Virus record (IMG/VR): IMGVR_UViG_3300046507_000357
Coordinates: 1 to 50,851 of that record
Reading direction: 5' to 3' (one strand)
Origin: a virus
DNA: 50,851 nt
The notes beneath the pieces were generated by a model. The model searched no databases. It was not told where the DNA came from and was given only the letters and a program-made list of their open reading frames with translations. The translations under genes were made by a program, and so were the position numbers. Shown here piece by piece: positions 25,758-45,919 of the stretch. The stretch's first letter is position 1, and each line of letters opens with the position of its first letter.

Positions 25758-26195
25758 TCAAAACGGCAGATCCGAGTCGAACTCGTCGGCGGCCGCCGCA
25801 TGCTTGATCTTCGGAACGGCCTTCACGCGAATCCTGATCAGGTCTTTGCCTTTCAGGTCGTAGCAGTCGCTCAGGTCGATGAATGCCTTGTATCGGGCCT
25901 TGCTGCGCGTGCTGGCCGTCACGGTGAAGACCGATGGGTGGCTCCAGTCATCCCACCTGTCTCGCGGTAGAAGACACTTCCACTCCCGCAGCGCCGGCGA
26001 ATCGACGATCTCGCCATACACAACTTTGTCGGTCGGGTGATAACGACGCTCTTCCTCGCTGGCGTCGCCGTCGATGACAACTCGCAGGTAATGACCGTCC
26101 GCACCCACGATCACGCCGCGCTCGCCGTAGCAGGTAACTTGACGGCCTCGCTCGGCCGGCACGCCGTAGTACTTGCAGATGTAGTCGAAACTCAT
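25758..26195 (-). CDS. early protein with KOW-like N-terminus and SSB-like C-terminal tip
   Basis: 145 residues. The first ~60 (Y-Y-G-V-P-A-E-R-G-R-Q-V...G-H-Y-L-R-V-V...Y-H-P-T-D-K-V) match a small domain common in phages. The rest is beta-rich. It ends D-E-F-D-S-D-L-P-F, strikingly like the acidic tip of bacterial SSB (D-D-D-I-P-F) that recruits repair and replication proteins. GAGG six bases before ATG. Confidence 0.6.
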   Translation of the reverse strand: MSFDYICKYYGVPAERGRQVTCYGERGVIVGADGHYLRVVIDGDASEEERRYHPTDKVVYGEIVDSPALREWKCLLPRDRWDDWSHPSVFTVTASTRSKARYKAFIDLSDCYDLKGKDLIRIRVKAVPKIKHAAAADEFDSDLPF

Positions 26196-26214
26196 GTCTT
26201 GCCTCGATGCGTCG

Positions 26215-26259
26215 AAAAACGGGCGTAGCCGCCCTAAGCACGCCGCGCTGTCTGCGCGG
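26215..26259 (-). terminator. double terminator hairpins upstream of 26195 gene
   Basis: Two minus-strand hairpins: CCGCGC-N5-GCGCGG (26243-26259) and GGGCG-GCTA-CGCCC followed by GTTTTT (26215-26234). They should stop transcription from the operator promoter at 26664-26692, limiting that unit to one gene. Confidence 0.7.
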
Positions 26260-26272
26260 TTCGTGGTAAGCG

Positions 26273-26614
26273 TTATGCTGCCGCCGTACTTGCGATCGGC
26301 TTGCGCGTGATCGCTGGAATGCTGCCGATGCGGATGCTGACCTGCTCGCCGTTGTCACGCGCCAGTAGTTGAGCTGCGGATACGATCAGGTTGTGTGTGA
26401 GTTGATGCGTTGGCTTGATGGCCCGCAGATATGCGTCTGTCGCTTGTGCAAGCGCGCGGCCGAGTTCGTCTTGCTTCACTGTGCCGTTTCCCGTATGGCG
26501 CGTTGAAACTGCCGCCCGGTGCGCTTTCTGTGCGTTTCGGCACGCGCTTACACGAGCGGCCATGATGGCGTTCGCTGGCGAGCGTAATAATGCTGAGAAT
26601 TTCGTGTAGAGCAT
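26273..26614 (-). CDS. hypothetical early protein
   Basis: 113 residues from ATG at 26614, with AAGGA nine bases upstream. A longer frame starting in the operator was rejected because it would remove the leader. Helical, Ala/Arg-rich, ending V-S-I-R-I-G-S-I-P-A-I. It is alone between an operator promoter and a double terminator, so it may be made early and in quantity. Function unknown. Confidence 0.6.
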   Translation of the reverse strand: MLYTKFSALLRSPANAIMAARVSACRNAQKAHRAAVSTRHTGNGTVKQDELGRALAQATDAYLRAIKPTHQLTHNLIVSAAQLLARDNGEQVSIRIGSIPAITRKPIASTAAA

Positions 26615-41197: not shown

Positions 41198-41300
41198 GTA
41201 TGCAAATAGCGCTTGCGATACTGTGAAGGTTTTGATACGATTTATCTAACATGTCGTTTTTGCGTCCAGCTTTGATGATGTGTTCATGTTGGTTCCGTTC

Positions 41301-41392
41301 GTAGATCCCCAGATCTACTTTCCGCTCCCTTCCAAGGTCGAGCGGCTTTTTATTCCTGCAAGCCGTCGCATGAGCAATCTGCGGCGGCTTTT
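41301..41392 (+). terminator. two terminator hairpins after 41003 gene
   Basis: GTAGATC-CCCA-GATCTAC (41301-41318) followed by TTT, and a 10-bp stem AAGCCGTCGC/GCGGCGGCTT (41360-41369 with 41381-41390, one G-T pair) followed by TT. They close the repressor-side plus transcript. Confidence 0.55.
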
Positions 41393-41402
41393 GCATTTCT
41401 GA

Positions 41403-41485
41403 GCCGGACCCTGGCGGTCTGTGGCATCGACAAGCGCTTGTGCGATGTTGCGGTGGCGGTTCGATTCCGTTCTCGTCTGGCGCCA
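41403..41485 (+). other. tRNA-like element, not a standard tRNA
   Basis: A 7-bp end stem GCCGGAC (41403-41409)/GTCTGGC (41475-41481) is followed by G and CCA (41483-41485). Inside is GGTTCGATTCC, a textbook T-arm sequence, and a long central hairpin (CATCG...CGATG around ACAAGCGCTTGT). The T stem is about 8 bp instead of 5, no D-arm is visible and there is no proper anticodon arm. It is a tRNA mimic or relic, not a decoding tRNA. Confidence 0.45.
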
Positions 41486-41487
41486 AA

Positions 41488-41511
41488 CAAAAAGCCAGCG
41501 CAAGGCTGGCT
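41488..41511 (-). terminator. minus-strand terminator
   Basis: AGCCAGC-N5-GCTGGCT stem (41493-41511); on the minus strand it is followed by TTTTTG. It ends the leftward unit with the 41701-41829 and 41572-41664 genes. Confidence 0.65.
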
Positions 41512-41571
41512 CTCTGCGGTCTATAACCGCAGCACAGGGTTCCGCTGACGGCGCGCCATCATGGCAGCCGC

Positions 41572-41664
41572 CTACGCGTTAGCGATCTGCTGTTCTCGCC
41601 GGTCGGTTGGTGGACTGTCGACCGGCTGACGTAATAAGCGGTTGGGCAGGTTGATCGTGTTCAT
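41572..41664 (-). CDS. 30-residue small protein
   Basis: M-N-T-I-N-L-P-N-R-L-L-R-Q-P-V-D-S-P. AAAGGA nine bases before ATG. Lies between the acidic 42-residue gene and a terminator. Function unknown. Confidence 0.5.
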   Translation of the reverse strand: MNTINLPNRLLRQPVDSPPTDRREQQIANA

Positions 41665-41700
41665 GGCTTCCGTTCCTTTTGGTTATTGCTTCGTGGTGAT

Positions 41701-41829
41701 TCAGTTGCTGTCGGCGTCGCTATCGTCTGTGTCGTCGTCCAGCTCAGGCTCGCCATAGCTCTCGTCGCAGTAGCGAGCGGCAACCCGCGCAAGGTCGGAT
41801 TCGCCTGCGGTGCTGAAAGCTGATTTCAT
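41701..41829 (-). CDS. 42-residue acidic protein
   Basis: M-K-S-A-F-S-T-A-G-E-S-D-L-A then a strongly acidic tail E-L-D-D-D-T-D-D-S-D-A-D. AGGAG six bases before ATG. Acidic tails in phage micro-proteins can mimic DNA, but nothing here proves it. Confidence 0.6.
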   Translation of the reverse strand: MKSAFSTAGESDLARVAARYCDESYGEPELDDDTDDSDADSN

Positions 41830-41955
41830 GGCGCACTCCTAATGATCCTGAGATACGTTGAAGAAGGCCCGCGGTGCTTCTGGTGCGCGCGACCGTTGAA
41901 CGGCCTGCGCTGCTGCAATCCGCTCGACAAGCTGGATTAACTGTCAAGCCAGCAT

Positions 41956-41984
41956 TTGATCGAAGGATGCCATAACAGTATCGG
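41956..41984 (+). promoter_or_regulatory. rightward promoter with variant operator
   Basis: Plus-strand TTGATC, 17-bp spacer, TATCGG, with operator GGATGCC-N5-AGTATCG (41965-41983), one base off the consensus arm. It probably starts the 42103-42870 genes and could continue into the structured RNA. The interval 41830-42102 holds no supported gene. Confidence 0.45.
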
Positions 41985-42062
41985 ACAGTGTGAGAAGTTT
42001 TCGTTACAAGTTGTATTCGTGGATACTGTTGCGCGCTTTGTGTTCGTTGGCGCACATTGCAC

Positions 42063-42081
42063 AGATGCCGTGACAGCATCA
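42063..42081. promoter_or_regulatory. variant operator AGATGCC-N5-AGCATCA
   Basis: An imperfect inverted repeat with the same 7-5-7 spacing but GATGC/GCATC arms, 22 bp upstream of the 42103 start. A further half-site GGATACT lies near 42024. The pair suggests a second-affinity site of the same regulator. Confidence 0.4.
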
Positions 42082-42102
42082 CTACAGTTGCGAGAGGACG
42101 CC

Positions 42103-42318
42103 ATGCTCACAAGTTTCCTGATTGCTGCCGTCGTGCTGCTCGCCGTTGCGTTGACCGTTTCAGTGCTGATGATGCACATGCCGCGTATTCGCGAGCGTGA
42201 CGCGCAGGCAAGGGCAAACCGACGCCGGCGAGAGATCGAGGATGCGAAGTGGCGCGAGCTTGAATCTTGCGCGGACTGGCGCGCTGAGCGGCATCGCAAT
42301 TCAACGGAGGCCGTATGA
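42103..42318 (+). CDS. small membrane-anchored basic protein
   Basis: 71 residues: M-L-T-S-F-L-I-A-A-V-V-L-L-A-V-A-L-T-V membrane segment, then a basic helix R-R-R-R-E-I-E-D-A-K-W-R. AGAGG before ATG at 42103. ATGA overlap with the next gene. Confidence 0.55.
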   Translation: MLTSFLIAAVVLLAVALTVSVLMMHMPRIRERDAQARANRRRREIEDAKWRELESCADWRAERHRNSTEAV

Positions 42319-42458
42319 GATGCGCTGTTGGTCTTATGTGCTGGCCGCTGCTCGGCTTGATGTGGTTCGCCGCGACGCTTGGTGATTCGATGGGCGATCT
42401 CGTCTACTACCTGGACGATCTGACCGATCGGATGCTTGAGTATGCGGAGGGCGAATGA
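42315..42458 (+). CDS. 47-residue small protein
   Basis: M-R-C-A-V-G-L-M-C-W-P-L-L-G-L-M-W then acidic L-D-D-L-T-D-R-M-L-E. GGAGG four bases before ATG and overlaps with both neighbours. Possible membrane-associated peptide. Confidence 0.55.
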   Translation: MRCAVGLMCWPLLGLMWFAATLGDSMGDLVYYLDDLTDRMLEYAEGE

Positions 42459-42655
42459 AGCTGACCGAAGCTATCGCCGTTGCTCGCCGCGTGATGATCG
42501 AGCATGCCGGGATCGAGGTATCGACCATTGAGATGCGCCCGCATGCGCAGCCGGTGAATCCCGACAACGTGCAGCAGGCAGAAGCCGCGGCGGCTTACAA
42601 CGCAATGTATGCGTTCACGTCGATGCTGAACACGATCGCGCCGGAGTCGGTATGA
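42455..42655 (+). CDS. hypothetical small protein
   Basis: 66 residues, M-K-L-T-E-A-I-A-V-A-R-R-V-M-I, helical with a His/Pro centre. 4-bp overlaps both sides. Function unknown. Confidence 0.55.
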   Translation: MKLTEAIAVARRVMIEHAGIEVSTIEMRPHAQPVNPDNVQQAEAAAAYNAMYAFTSMLNTIAPESV

Positions 42656-42870
42656 GCGCAGGCGCTAATGATCCGCACGACGACATCGACAAACTGTGCG
42701 ACACGATCGCCGTGTTGATGCTCGCTCTGTGCGAGAACGAATTGCTGGAGCTACCAGAAGATGCGGCCGACGCTGCGAACAAGCGCCTGCTATCGCTGCA
42801 AGGCGAGAGCCAGGTCGATGTAATCAAGGCTGGCGTCGAGGTGCTGATGCGCAGCCGGGTAGTGCACTAA
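42652..42870 (+). CDS. hypothetical small acidic protein
   Basis: 72 residues, acidic helices (D-P-H-D-D-I-D-K-L-C-D-T-I...L-E-L-P-E-D-A-A-D). GGAG five bases before ATG. Last gene before the noncoding structured region, whose first hairpin starts 4 bp later. Confidence 0.55.
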   Translation: MSAGANDPHDDIDKLCDTIAVLMLALCENELLELPEDAADAANKRLLSLQGESQVDVIKAGVEVLMRSRVVH

Positions 42871-43795
42871 AGAATTCCCTGTGTGGGAATAGCGTCGCAC
42901 GATGCTCCCCGCATCTGCGCGCAAGCAAAGGGACCGCTCAACGCAGCTAACCGTCAAACGTCGGCTCTGTGCCGCGAGCGGGTCTCTACACACTTTCATG
43001 ATTGGCGATTGGCATCCGGTCCGATTGGCCAAAGGATTGCGGTCGAAGCGGCCAGTTGCCAACCATGAGAGTGCAAACCCGATACAACCTAGCCGCCGCT
43101 GGTTAGAGACTGGGACAGCCGAAAGGCGCAGACAGCGGCCACTCTCAACGAAATCGGTCTGGGCTGATCGGGCTCCGTGGTGCACCGCGACCCGCGAGGA
43201 AGGCATCAACACAGACGCCGCATAATCGTAAGCGGCAGATTCGGAGTCGCACCGTGTGCCAGCGCTTGGCCCCGAGTGTTATGTGCGACAGGGGCAAGAA
43301 CATGCCGAGAGCAGAGACCGGACACGATTGAGGCGGGATTGATCGCCCGCTACGCACCCGGTGCGCCGGGGTGAGCAACGGCAACAGACAGGAGCAATCG
43401 GGTGAAGCCGCCCGGCCCTCGCGGTCCGCGTCTAAGGTGATGCGCCAATTCATAAGCCCAAAGCGTATCCGGTGCCTCACGAAACGAGGCTCTTTCGCGC
43501 ATGAGCGCTGCTCAGCAGTTGGCACTGTTGCCGAGTCCCGGCATATACGGGGCCGCGCTCATGCGCAAATGATTTCCCCGCGCTGCTCCCGGCTGATTGC
43601 TGTCAACCCTGCGAACTCTCCGCGCAGGCGAGGCCGGTGAGCGCGCACCTACAACCGACTGCTTGCAGTCACGCGCCTGGCCGTGGAGTGGCGCGACGCA
43701 TCACGAATAACCCCGGCAGGCCACGATAGAGCGTAAGCCGTTCCTCCCTGACCTCGGTCAGTTTCTGCGGCGCTAGGCGTGGTCAACCCTACACA
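42871..43795 (+). ncRNA. candidate large structured phage RNA (~0.9 kb)
   Basis: About 930 bp with no credible gene. Helices seen: 42874-42890 (6 bp), 42901-42915 (5 bp), 42930-42939 with 42976-42986, 43066-43073 with 43140-43147 (8 bp), a GCC-GAAA-GGC tetraloop at 43118-43127, 43269-43295, 43333-43350, 43357-43370, 43474-43490, a 12-bp perfect helix 43497-43508 with 43555-43566 enclosing three hairpins, 43608-43628, 43657-43670 and 43748-43761. Size and phage late-region position recall GOLLD/ROOL-type RNAs, but no class is assigned. Strand assumed from neighbours. Confidence 0.55.
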
Positions 43796-43804
43796 GAGGA
43801 CGCA

Positions 43805-44050
43805 ATGAACAAACTTTCACTGTTGGCCGCTGCTGCGATGGCGGCCAGCGTATGCGGTGGATACGGATTGTCGTTCTCGACGAGTGGCGGCTATCCGCAG
43901 CATGGCTTTCGAACGGATGGGCGCAGTTACAGGCAGGGAAAGTCTGCGTTTCAGGTCCGCGTCGACGATATGGTGCGCCGGAAGGCTGCGCAAACGCTCG
44001 AAGCAAACGCACGGCGAGACATGAGTCGGCAATTGAAGTCGATCAGTTGA
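43805..44050 (+). CDS. small exported protein
   Basis: 81 residues with a Sec-type N-terminus (M-N-K-L-S-L-L-A-A-A-A-M-A-A-S-V-C-G-G) and a basic mature part R-V-D-D-M-V-R-R-K-A-A-Q. AGAGGA four bases before ATG. Sits between the structured RNA and terminase. Periplasmic role unknown. Confidence 0.55.
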   Translation: MNKLSLLAAAAMAASVCGGYGLSFSTSGGYPQHGFRTDGRSYRQGKSAFQVRVDDMVRRKAAQTLEANARRDMSRQLKSIS

Positions 44051-44069
44051 GCAGGAAACGCTAACACGC

Positions 44070-44102
44070 ACCGAGCCGAGAGAAATAATCTTCCTCGGTT
44101 TT
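44070..44102 (+). terminator. terminator before terminase genes
   Basis: ACCGAG...CTCGGT stem (44070-44075 with 44094-44099) with an inner AGA/TCT pairing and a following TTTT. It separates upstream short genes from the packaging operon. Confidence 0.5.
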
Positions 44103-44133
44103 GCGAAACGATACCCCATGAACGAGGCCGCAC

Positions 44134-44691
44134 ATGGCGAAAGCATGTGGGGCGCTCACCAAATCAGGCTCGCCCTGCAAACGCGCCCCGTTAGAAGGTA
44201 AGGCGCGCTGCAAGCTGCACGGCGGCGCAAGTACAGGCCCGAAGAATCCGGCGCGTCCGATCGGCAATCAGAACGCCGCGAAGCACGGCATCTACAGCAC
44301 GGCGCTATTGCCGGGTGAGGATGAATGCGCGGGCGATCTGCGCAGTTCGATTGGCGCGGTCGAGGATGAGCTATTCATCACGCGCTTGCGGTTGCGCCGT
44401 GCACTGAAGGCAGAAGCCGACGCGATCCAATCGAACAACTTCCTGGTGATCGATAGCGAGGTTCAGCGTGACGGCGACGGTAAAGCGTATGCCGCGGCTG
44501 AGACGCATCTGAAGCGCGTCGACTACACGGCGATCATTGACCGGCTGACGGCTCGCATTGAATCGCTGGAAAAGACACGCGCGGATCTGATGAAAACGAA
44601 TGGCGGTGAGCCGCCGGCGCCGATTGGTCGCATTGAGATCGAGGTTGTCAGTGCGAAGCATAAAAATGACGATGACGGAACCGCAGGCTAG
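44134..44691 (+). CDS. terminase small subunit
   Basis: 185 residues. C-G-A-L-T-K-S-G-S-P-C-K at the start, H-G-G-A-S-T-G-P-K and G-N-Q-N-A-A-K-H-G-I-Y are typical of small terminase/packaging proteins in this phage group; a coiled-coil C-terminal half follows. It recognises the pac/cos site and recruits TerL. Overlaps terL by 26 bp. Confidence 0.8.
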   Translation: MAKACGALTKSGSPCKRAPLEGKARCKLHGGASTGPKNPARPIGNQNAAKHGIYSTALLPGEDECAGDLRSSIGAVEDELFITRLRLRRALKAEADAIQSNNFLVIDSEVQRDGDGKAYAAAETHLKRVDYTAIIDRLTARIESLEKTRADLMKTNGGEPPAPIGRIEIEVVSAKHKNDDDGTAG

Positions 44692-45919
44692 GTTCTTTCA
44701 GCTTGAGGCGAAATATCCCGGCTTCATTGGCGGCTTCGGCGTAGGTAAGACCGAGACGCTAGCCAATTGCGCGCTGCGTGACGCGATGCTGGCACCGAAC
44801 GGCATGATCGGCTTGTACGAGCCGACATATGACCTTGTGCGGCTGATTCTGGCGCCTCGGATGGAAGAAAAGCTGTCCGAGTTCGGCATCCGCTACAAGT
44901 ACAACAAGCAGGAAAACATCATCTATGCCAGCTCTGGCGGCTGTGCTGATTTCATTCTGCGCACGCTGGACAATCCGGCGCGTATAGTTGGCTACGAAAC
45001 GTATCGGGCGCATGTCGACGAGATCGACACGCTGAAAGAGGATCACGCCGAGCTTGCGTGGCAAAAGATCATCGCGCGGAATCGGCAAAAGCCCGATGGT
45101 GTGCGCGATCCGCTAAACCGCGTGTCGGTCTACACGACACCGGAAGGTTTCAGGTTCGTGTACCGGCGATGGGCTCGCGATCCTGCGCCCGGTTACGAGA
45201 TGGTGCAGGCGGCGACGATGAGCAACCCGTTCCTGCCTGATGACTATGTTGATAGTCTGCGCGCGTCATATCCGCCGCAATTGATCGAAGCGTACCTGGA
45301 AGGCCGGTTCGTCAATCTGACGAGCGGTGCTGTGTATCCAGAATTCTCGCGCACGCTCAACCATGCCGGCGTGACGCCAGAGAAGGGCGAGCCACTGCAT
45401 GCGGGCCTCGACTTCAACGTTCTAAAAATGAGTGCCGTGCTGTTCGTTGTCCGCGACGACAAGCCGTATGCGGTTGCGGAGGCAACCGGAGTGCGCGATA
45501 CGCCGGCGATGGCTGAATTGCTGGATGAGCGGTTCCGCAAACAGGGGCATAGCGTCACGATCTACCCCGACGCCAGCGGACAGAACACGACGAGCAAGAA
45601 CGCATCCGAGTCGGATCTATCCATCCTGAAGCAAAAAGGCTTCACGATTCGCGTCGACTCGACCAACCCAAGCGTCAAAGACCGAGTGAATGCGGTCAAT
45701 GCGCTGATCTTGAACGACAAAGGCGAGCGACGCCTGATGGTGAACACGCACGCGTGTCCCGTCTTTACCGAATCGCTCGAACAGCAGGCTTACGACAAAA
45801 ACGGCGCGCCGGATAAATCGAGTGGTCACGACCACACGAACGACGCCGGCGGCTACTTCCTGGTGAAGAGCTGGCCGATCGTGAAGCGCCAGACGACCGT
45901 CAGACCGCTCCACATGTAA
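44666..45919 (+). CDS. terL: terminase large subunit
   Basis: 417 residues. Walker A G-G-F-G-V-G-K-T (22-29) and Walker B A-H-V-D-E (115-119), then the nuclease domain with A-G-L-D-F-N and Y-P-D-A-S-G. ATP-driven motor that packages DNA. Start set inside the small-subunit gene at M-T-M-T-E-P-Q; M3 is the alternative. Confidence 0.9.
   Translation: MTMTEPQARFFQLEAKYPGFIGGFGVGKTETLANCALRDAMLAPNGMIGLYEPTYDLVRLILAPRMEEKLSEFGIRYKYNKQENIIYASSGGCADFILRTLDNPARIVGYETYRAHVDEIDTLKEDHAELAWQKIIARNRQKPDGVRDPLNRVSVYTTPEGFRFVYRRWARDPAPGYEMVQAATMSNPFLPDDYVDSLRASYPPQLIEAYLEGRFVNLTSGAVYPEFSRTLNHAGVTPEKGEPLHAGLDFNVLKMSAVLFVVRDDKPYAVAEATGVRDTPAMAELLDERFRKQGHSVTIYPDASGQNTTSKNASESDLSILKQKGFTIRVDSTNPSVKDRVNAVNALILNDKGERRLMVNTHACPVFTESLEQQAYDKNGAPDKSSGHDHTNDAGGYFLVKSWPIVKRQTTVRPLHM

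Follow-up and report, generated by a model that had tools for sequence, protein, structure and literature searches.

A candidate array of RNA modules, one of them a probable divergent relative of Proteo-phage-1, upstream of the terminase genes of a soil phage

The 0.9-kb block at positions 42871-43804 of the genome of a soil phage probably represents, with confidence somewhat above even, an array of separate, independently folding plus-strand RNA modules that would be expressed with the late (packaging) genes and that includes an RNA of the Proteo-phage-1 type, module F. This reading is drawn from sequence comparison. The window, by which we mean the whole stretch of DNA analyzed, is a viral record of 50851 bases in which the tail genes come first, followed by replication and regulatory genes; the terminase, portal, and head genes are located at 44.1-49.6 kb on the plus strand. 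The block is found in the late gene region, flanked by small genes and directly upstream of a plus-strand gene for an 81-aa protein without a family assignment (43805-44050). This gene separates the array from the terminase, and in relatives it is absent or swapped for other genes. The small terminase subunit TerS (44134-44691, phrog_1889) and the large subunit TerL (44666-45919, phrog_2 and phrog_10250) follow on the same strand.

Relatives and database searches

About 35 phage contigs with parts of the block (identified below by L numbers) were gathered by terminase searches and module patterns. They share the block as a mosaic in which pieces up to 97-99% identical end at the same breakpoints and are separated by unrelated DNA, and these breakpoints define the modules A, B, D, E, and F, whose order is largely constant. 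No Rfam family, GOLLD and ROOL included, matched anywhere in the window at the gathering cut-off. At E <= 10 the region 42500-44200 returned a sub-threshold match to Proteo-phage-1 and two unrelated weak matches, with none to the GOLLD and ROOL models, and a blastn search with the block gave no match among phages or plasmids. Two other candidates, self-cleaving ribozymes and integron attC sites, were also set aside; to our knowledge neither has a core matching the block, and neither was matched in Rfam.

ARAGORN found no tRNA in the window, and no cloverleaf with an anticodon loop was seen. A tRNA-like element that was picked up by neither ARAGORN nor Rfam is present at 41403-41485. It has a 7-bp acceptor stem (GCCGGAC/GTCTGGC) followed by G-CCA and a T-arm with a TTCGATT loop; in place of an anticodon loop, the anticodon arm forms one longer stem (ACAAG/CTTGT, or TCGAG/CTCGA in L114 and L120). 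Its single-sequence folding z is only -0.6. Between genes at 41970-42030 there is also an inverted repeat, ACAGTATC/GATACTGT, with counterparts in relatives, which is possibly an operator and promoter for late small genes.

Coding potential and folding energy of the block

An earlier note on this DNA described the block as free of plausible genes and packed with RNA helices. The helices it named exist: TGAGAGTG at 43066-43073 can pair with CACTCTCA at 43140-43147 over 8 bp, and GCGCATGAGCGC at 43497-43508 forms a perfect 12-bp pair with GCGCTCATGCGC at 43555-43566 that closes three hairpins. However, the overall richness in helices proved to be barely above chance when judged by the folding energy of the single sequence. 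In 120-nt sliding windows on the plus strand, the block had a mean z of -0.19, no better than the terminase coding sequence (-0.61), so a dozen clean helices in G+C-rich DNA are not evidence alone. Folded as a whole, the block gave z = -3.4 versus -2.0 for an equal length of the terminase gene, each from only 20 shuffles. Individual modules A and D were better than their shuffles (z of -3.9 and -3.8, respectively), and module F reached only -1.1 despite its very strong covariation.

The description of the block as lacking a protein gene held up, in that no conserved protein frame was found. The longest plus-strand open reading frame (42902-43225, 107 aa) spans modules A and B and is crossed by length differences of 1 nt and of 6-7 nt among relatives. 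It is very improbable, in our view, that small unannotated proteins account for the conservation. One candidate is a 23-aa frame in module D (MSAAQQLALLPSPGIYGAALMRK, ATG at 43501), whose ATG, stop, and length are kept in 11 of 11 distinct complete D copies. Yet this ATG is not preceded by a ribosome site, the two types of D differ mostly by amino-acid changes, and modules A, E, and F contain frame-breaking length changes.

Covariation in module F

Module F (43657-43794, plus strand) consists of a 5' hairpin, a second hairpin (GCGCC../..GGCGCG), and a helix (GGCCACG/CGTGGTC) with inner stems. Its 19 distinct homologues were aligned over 152 columns. For a structure of 29 pairs, 97.2% of the cells were paired and 15 pairs showed two-sided changes. 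The covariation score was 0.409, compared with at most 0.083 when the partners were slid, and none of 500 shuffles scored as high. Covariation among homologues was one of the checks proposed in the earlier note, and in F it is strong. Helix 3 has been rewritten several times, appearing as GGCCACG/CGTGGTC, GGTCGCG/CGCGGCC, and GGCAGAC/GTCTGCC, and includes 16 G.U cells versus 0 A.C cells; across all pairs the counts are 24 and 8. This excess of G.U over A.C indicates that the folded molecule is RNA of the plus strand. From these comparative data, we conclude that F is a real structured RNA.

The same counts bear on the idea that the block is a DNA packaging site (cos or pac) in which TerS binds inverted repeats, which its place immediately upstream of the terminase genes might suggest. 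A DNA cruciform would be expected to show no difference between the strands, and the pairs of F do show one. Moreover, F is common to phages with two different TerS types, being retained where neighboring genes and TerS type differ, and Proteo-phage-1 is about 2.5 kb from TerL in relatives. We therefore regard a packaging site as a highly unlikely explanation.

A candidate pseudoknot joins the hairpin loop GCCG of F to a downstream CGGC. The two strands change jointly to GCGG/CCGC in L098, L114, L121, and L082, with L120 as an exception, and only 4 of 2000 shuffles were as good. The pseudoknot is weakly supported, because a single position varies. The RNA may thus be pictured as a hairpin with a possible loop pseudoknot, followed by a long helix. 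Separately, a DNA-pattern scan of genome contigs had yielded 119 stretches, none of which the F profile recovered at E 0.05; these look like chance matches.

Relationship of F to Proteo-phage-1

The Rfam model of Proteo-phage-1 (RF03044) scored 20.6 bits on F at 43663-43721, under the 42-bit gathering cut-off, and 16.4 bits at the corresponding place in L117. The matched sequence contains the motifs AGCCGGU-AGUG-CGCG and AAC-CCGGCAG. F has the second hairpin of Proteo-phage-1, and its AGCCGG and CCGGCAG are able to pair (4 bp, with one covarying position). The genomic position also agrees: the strong RF03044 matches in seven relatives are all on the plus strand and upstream of TerL, and in related phages Proteo-phage-1 is found about 2 to 3.7 kb upstream of that gene, often with tRNAs. 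The top matches of the F model in L031 and L044 (11.4 and 10.4 bits) coincide exactly with RF03044 loci scoring 86.8 and 81.1, and its best match in L033 and its match in L032 are RF03044 loci as well, though the F-model scores are weak overall (8.0-11.4 bits). In the reverse direction, an extended Proteo-phage-1 model found F weakly at 7.9 bits (E 3) and L117 at 12.3 bits. Given these weak reverse matches and the sub-threshold RF03044 score, F is a probable divergent relative of Proteo-phage-1, not a proven member. When 200 genomes of one bacterial family were searched with the F model, a single match was obtained (L246, 36 bits); this locus and L013 (32.9 bits) may be intermediates between the two forms. 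Four Burkholderia/Caballeronia genomes yielded no Proteo-phage-1, a result that says little since the control genomes gave no match either. Our literature search found no paper on the function of Proteo-phage-1, which is listed in Rfam.

Canonical Proteo-phage-1 units occur in L031 (2594-3018), L032 (2146-2419), L044 (2274-2690), L048 (2904-3225), and L247 (3974-4175). There, a middle domain containing a hairpin that resembles GGGGAAAGACCC comes after the canonical RNA; the slot beyond this domain is either empty or occupied by a tRNA, a tRNA-like element, or a B-type domain. Judging from these sequences, the RNA unit in the five phages is larger than the Rfam model covers. L247 is Pseudomonas phage phiAH14a (KU708004), in which the RNA is located between the nin genes and the terminase. 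An annotated 'hypothetical protein' on its minus strand (26084-26614), antisense over the RNA, is probably a spurious gene call.

Competing helices in module B

Module B spans 42990-43149 on the plus strand and contains two helices built on the same middle strand. In helix 1 (42991-43073), the upstream strand CACTTTCATG (42991-43000) pairs with the middle strand CATGAGAGTG (43064-43073). Helix 2 (43066-43147) is the 8-bp long-range pair described above, in which the middle strand pairs with the downstream strand CACTCTCA. The three strands were found in 8 variants, with 97.5% of the cells paired and 3 pairs changed on both sides for helix 1, and 98.4% paired and 2 pairs changed on both sides for helix 2. 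The long-range pair picked out in the earlier note is therefore conserved among relatives with two-sided changes. These counts are optimistic, as some variants came from a pattern requiring the strands, others were read from the A-D interval, and all were trimmed by hand. Since both helices use the same middle strand, they are mutually exclusive, and the module can be drawn in two folds, like a switch.

B also appears to be connected with the canonical Proteo-phage-1 phages. In L048 the inner motif GAATGCGCAGGCTGATGCG..GGAGATCAGCGCC, which is common to this phage and the B modules of L108, L103, L106, and L082, is enclosed by a different but matching outer stem (GCGGATG/CATCCGC). This L048 domain sits in the slot that holds tRNA-Gly in L032 and tRNA-like elements in L031 and L044. 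The B module of the window itself has a different interior within the same outer stem. Upstream of the B module in L091 (1500-1600) and L118 (5405-5500, minus strand), there are two tandem T-arm hairpins and no recognizable full tRNA.

Modules A, D, and E and segment C

For modules A, D, and E, this clade offers too little variation for a strong covariation test. Module A (42872-42991, plus strand), present in 15 relatives besides the window, begins with a 5' hairpin (ATTCCC-TGTGT-GGGAAT, 42874-42890), followed by a second hairpin and a long stem, AGGGACCGCTC/GAGCGGGTCTCT. The stems are preserved despite base substitutions in a diverged second copy in L091 (3746-3899), and L098, L105, and L110 contain A-like units with matching ends that likewise retain the hairpins and a GTCTCT stem although bases have changed. 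Module D (43488-43573, plus strand) resembles a four-way junction, with a long outer stem closing three hairpins. Its 11 distinct copies vary little, and the 12-bp pair that is perfect in the window is imperfect in relatives. Module E (43574-43646, plus strand) is conserved in over 20 contigs and has the stems CGCGCT/AGCGCG and CCGGC/GCCGG and an inner hairpin, CCTGCG..CGCAGG. In L111 and L112 the outer stem is kept and the inner part replaced, and in seven more distant contigs (L082, L114, L116, L117, L118, L120, and L121) the place of E is taken by E2 elements, whose stem reaches 11 bp at most. A, D, and E would accordingly be further small RNA folds.

Segment C (43150-43487, plus strand) makes up about a third of the block and has no comparative support: it was found in the window only, had no structure above chance (z +0.27), and gave no nhmmer match in the loci fetched at that stage. 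The earlier suggestion of a structured RNA of a new or divergent class thus survives in part. Structured RNA is present and no Rfam family matches at threshold, but F resembles a divergent Proteo-phage-1 and C lacks support.

Separate modules or one large RNA

The gaps between the modules have gained and lost small protein genes, tRNAs, and tRNA-like pieces across the relatives. The D-E gap holds either nothing or a small protein gene, while the gap between E (or E2) and F measures 8-17 nt or holds a small gene; in L091 it is 315 nt long and includes an A-like copy. Slots between modules are occupied by genes for proteins beginning MTPEQFAYW, MKYTPEEL, or MQINMTKK, or alternatively by 8 nt or tRNA-Trp, and the protein genes in the D-E and E-F gaps have ribosome sites. 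In L107 and L096/L001, a tRNA-Trp separates A from E. L091 and L112 have an isolated B about 1.4 kb upstream of A, and distant contigs lack A and D but contain F, alone or together with E2.

These arrangements speak against the single large ornate RNA proposed in the earlier note. A GOLLD/ROOL-like RNA that had received inserted genes and tRNAs, with F as its conserved 3' part and A-E as its variable 5' part, would fit the largely constant order A-B-D-E-F and the tRNAs nearby, as GOLLD is likewise conserved in its 3' part, variable in its 5' part, and located near tRNAs, and ROOL is found in tRNA islands (PMC12286853). When the block is folded as a whole, TGTGTGGG of A is also predicted to form a closing pair with CCCTACACAG in the F tail, where A-bearing relatives keep CCCATACA. 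This closing pair, however, never covaries in relatives with A and competes with A's own hairpin, and the Rfam models of both RNAs are unmatched even at E 10. With genes and tRNAs between the modules, one uninterrupted 0.9-kb RNA is unlikely. Together with the lone B and the F found apart from A and D, they favor separate RNA elements whose conserved sequences mark points of gene exchange.

Expression and possible functions

If the block is an array of separate RNAs, its position suggests that the modules would be transcribed from a late promoter. Position and the tRNA genes at the locus further suggest that the modules might be cut, or act as separate stable RNAs, as in a phage tRNA island. 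F would contribute its hairpin and long helix, and B a domain related to one in the tRNA slot of other phages, in which the middle strand could pair upstream or downstream. The conserved module sequences may at the same time serve as recombination anchors between which small genes are swapped.

The main functional rival would be a cis-acting role in late transcription. The putRNAs of phage HK022 are comparable in principle: folds in the nascent late leader would alter the RNA polymerase or govern whether transcription continues into the packaging genes. The block is on the same strand as the late genes and just upstream of them, and the Proteo-phage-1 of phiAH14a lies between the nin region and the terminase. 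Terminator-like hairpins, read from the sequence, flank the Proteo-phage-1 unit in L031, L044, and L048, and the competing helices in B would suit such a role. On the other hand, there are several different modules and not one repeated element, genes are gained and lost between the modules and the terminase, and scanning 41200-44300 for promoters and terminators gave no signal above chance. We consider this possibility an unlikely one overall.

A broader idea, doubtful but worth stating, is that Proteo-phage-1 belongs, as just one domain, to a broader modular system of phage RNAs. In such a system, a pseudoknotted domain would be joined to a domain that is a tRNA or resembles one, and an upstream strand could capture the acceptor-like strand of the latter, giving a two-state switch. 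The window clade would have expanded this system into the A, B, D, E, F array, which might control or accompany late gene expression. Whichever role applies, the relatives provide deep covariation for a divergent Proteo-phage-1 form, define its 3' domain, and locate it close to tRNAs in the late region, while the companion modules A, B, D, and E are covered by no Rfam family. Cultured phages, among them Pseudomonas phage phiAH14a, carry the canonical RNA and make its function accessible to experiment.

Comparison with known systems

The comparison with GOLLD and ROOL made in the earlier note stands as far as the block is phage-borne noncoding RNA near tRNA genes in related phages and, like GOLLD, combines a conserved 3' part with a variable 5' part. 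The block differs in that Rfam returned no match and that genes split the modules in relatives. Phage tRNA islands differ in another respect, as the window has no recognized tRNA and only the tRNA-like element at 41403-41485; in relatives, though, genes for tRNA-Trp, -Tyr, -Gly, -Met, -Asn, and -Thr are in or near the same place. From Proteo-phage-1, F is set apart by its sub-threshold score, short 5' hairpin, and longer 3' domain, and, unlike in L031, L044, and L048, the middle domain and tRNA slot do not follow it directly. It nevertheless shares with Proteo-phage-1 the motifs AGCCGG..AGUG..GCG and AAC.CCGGCAG, the possible loop-downstream pseudoknot, the next helix, the strand, and the place upstream of TerL.
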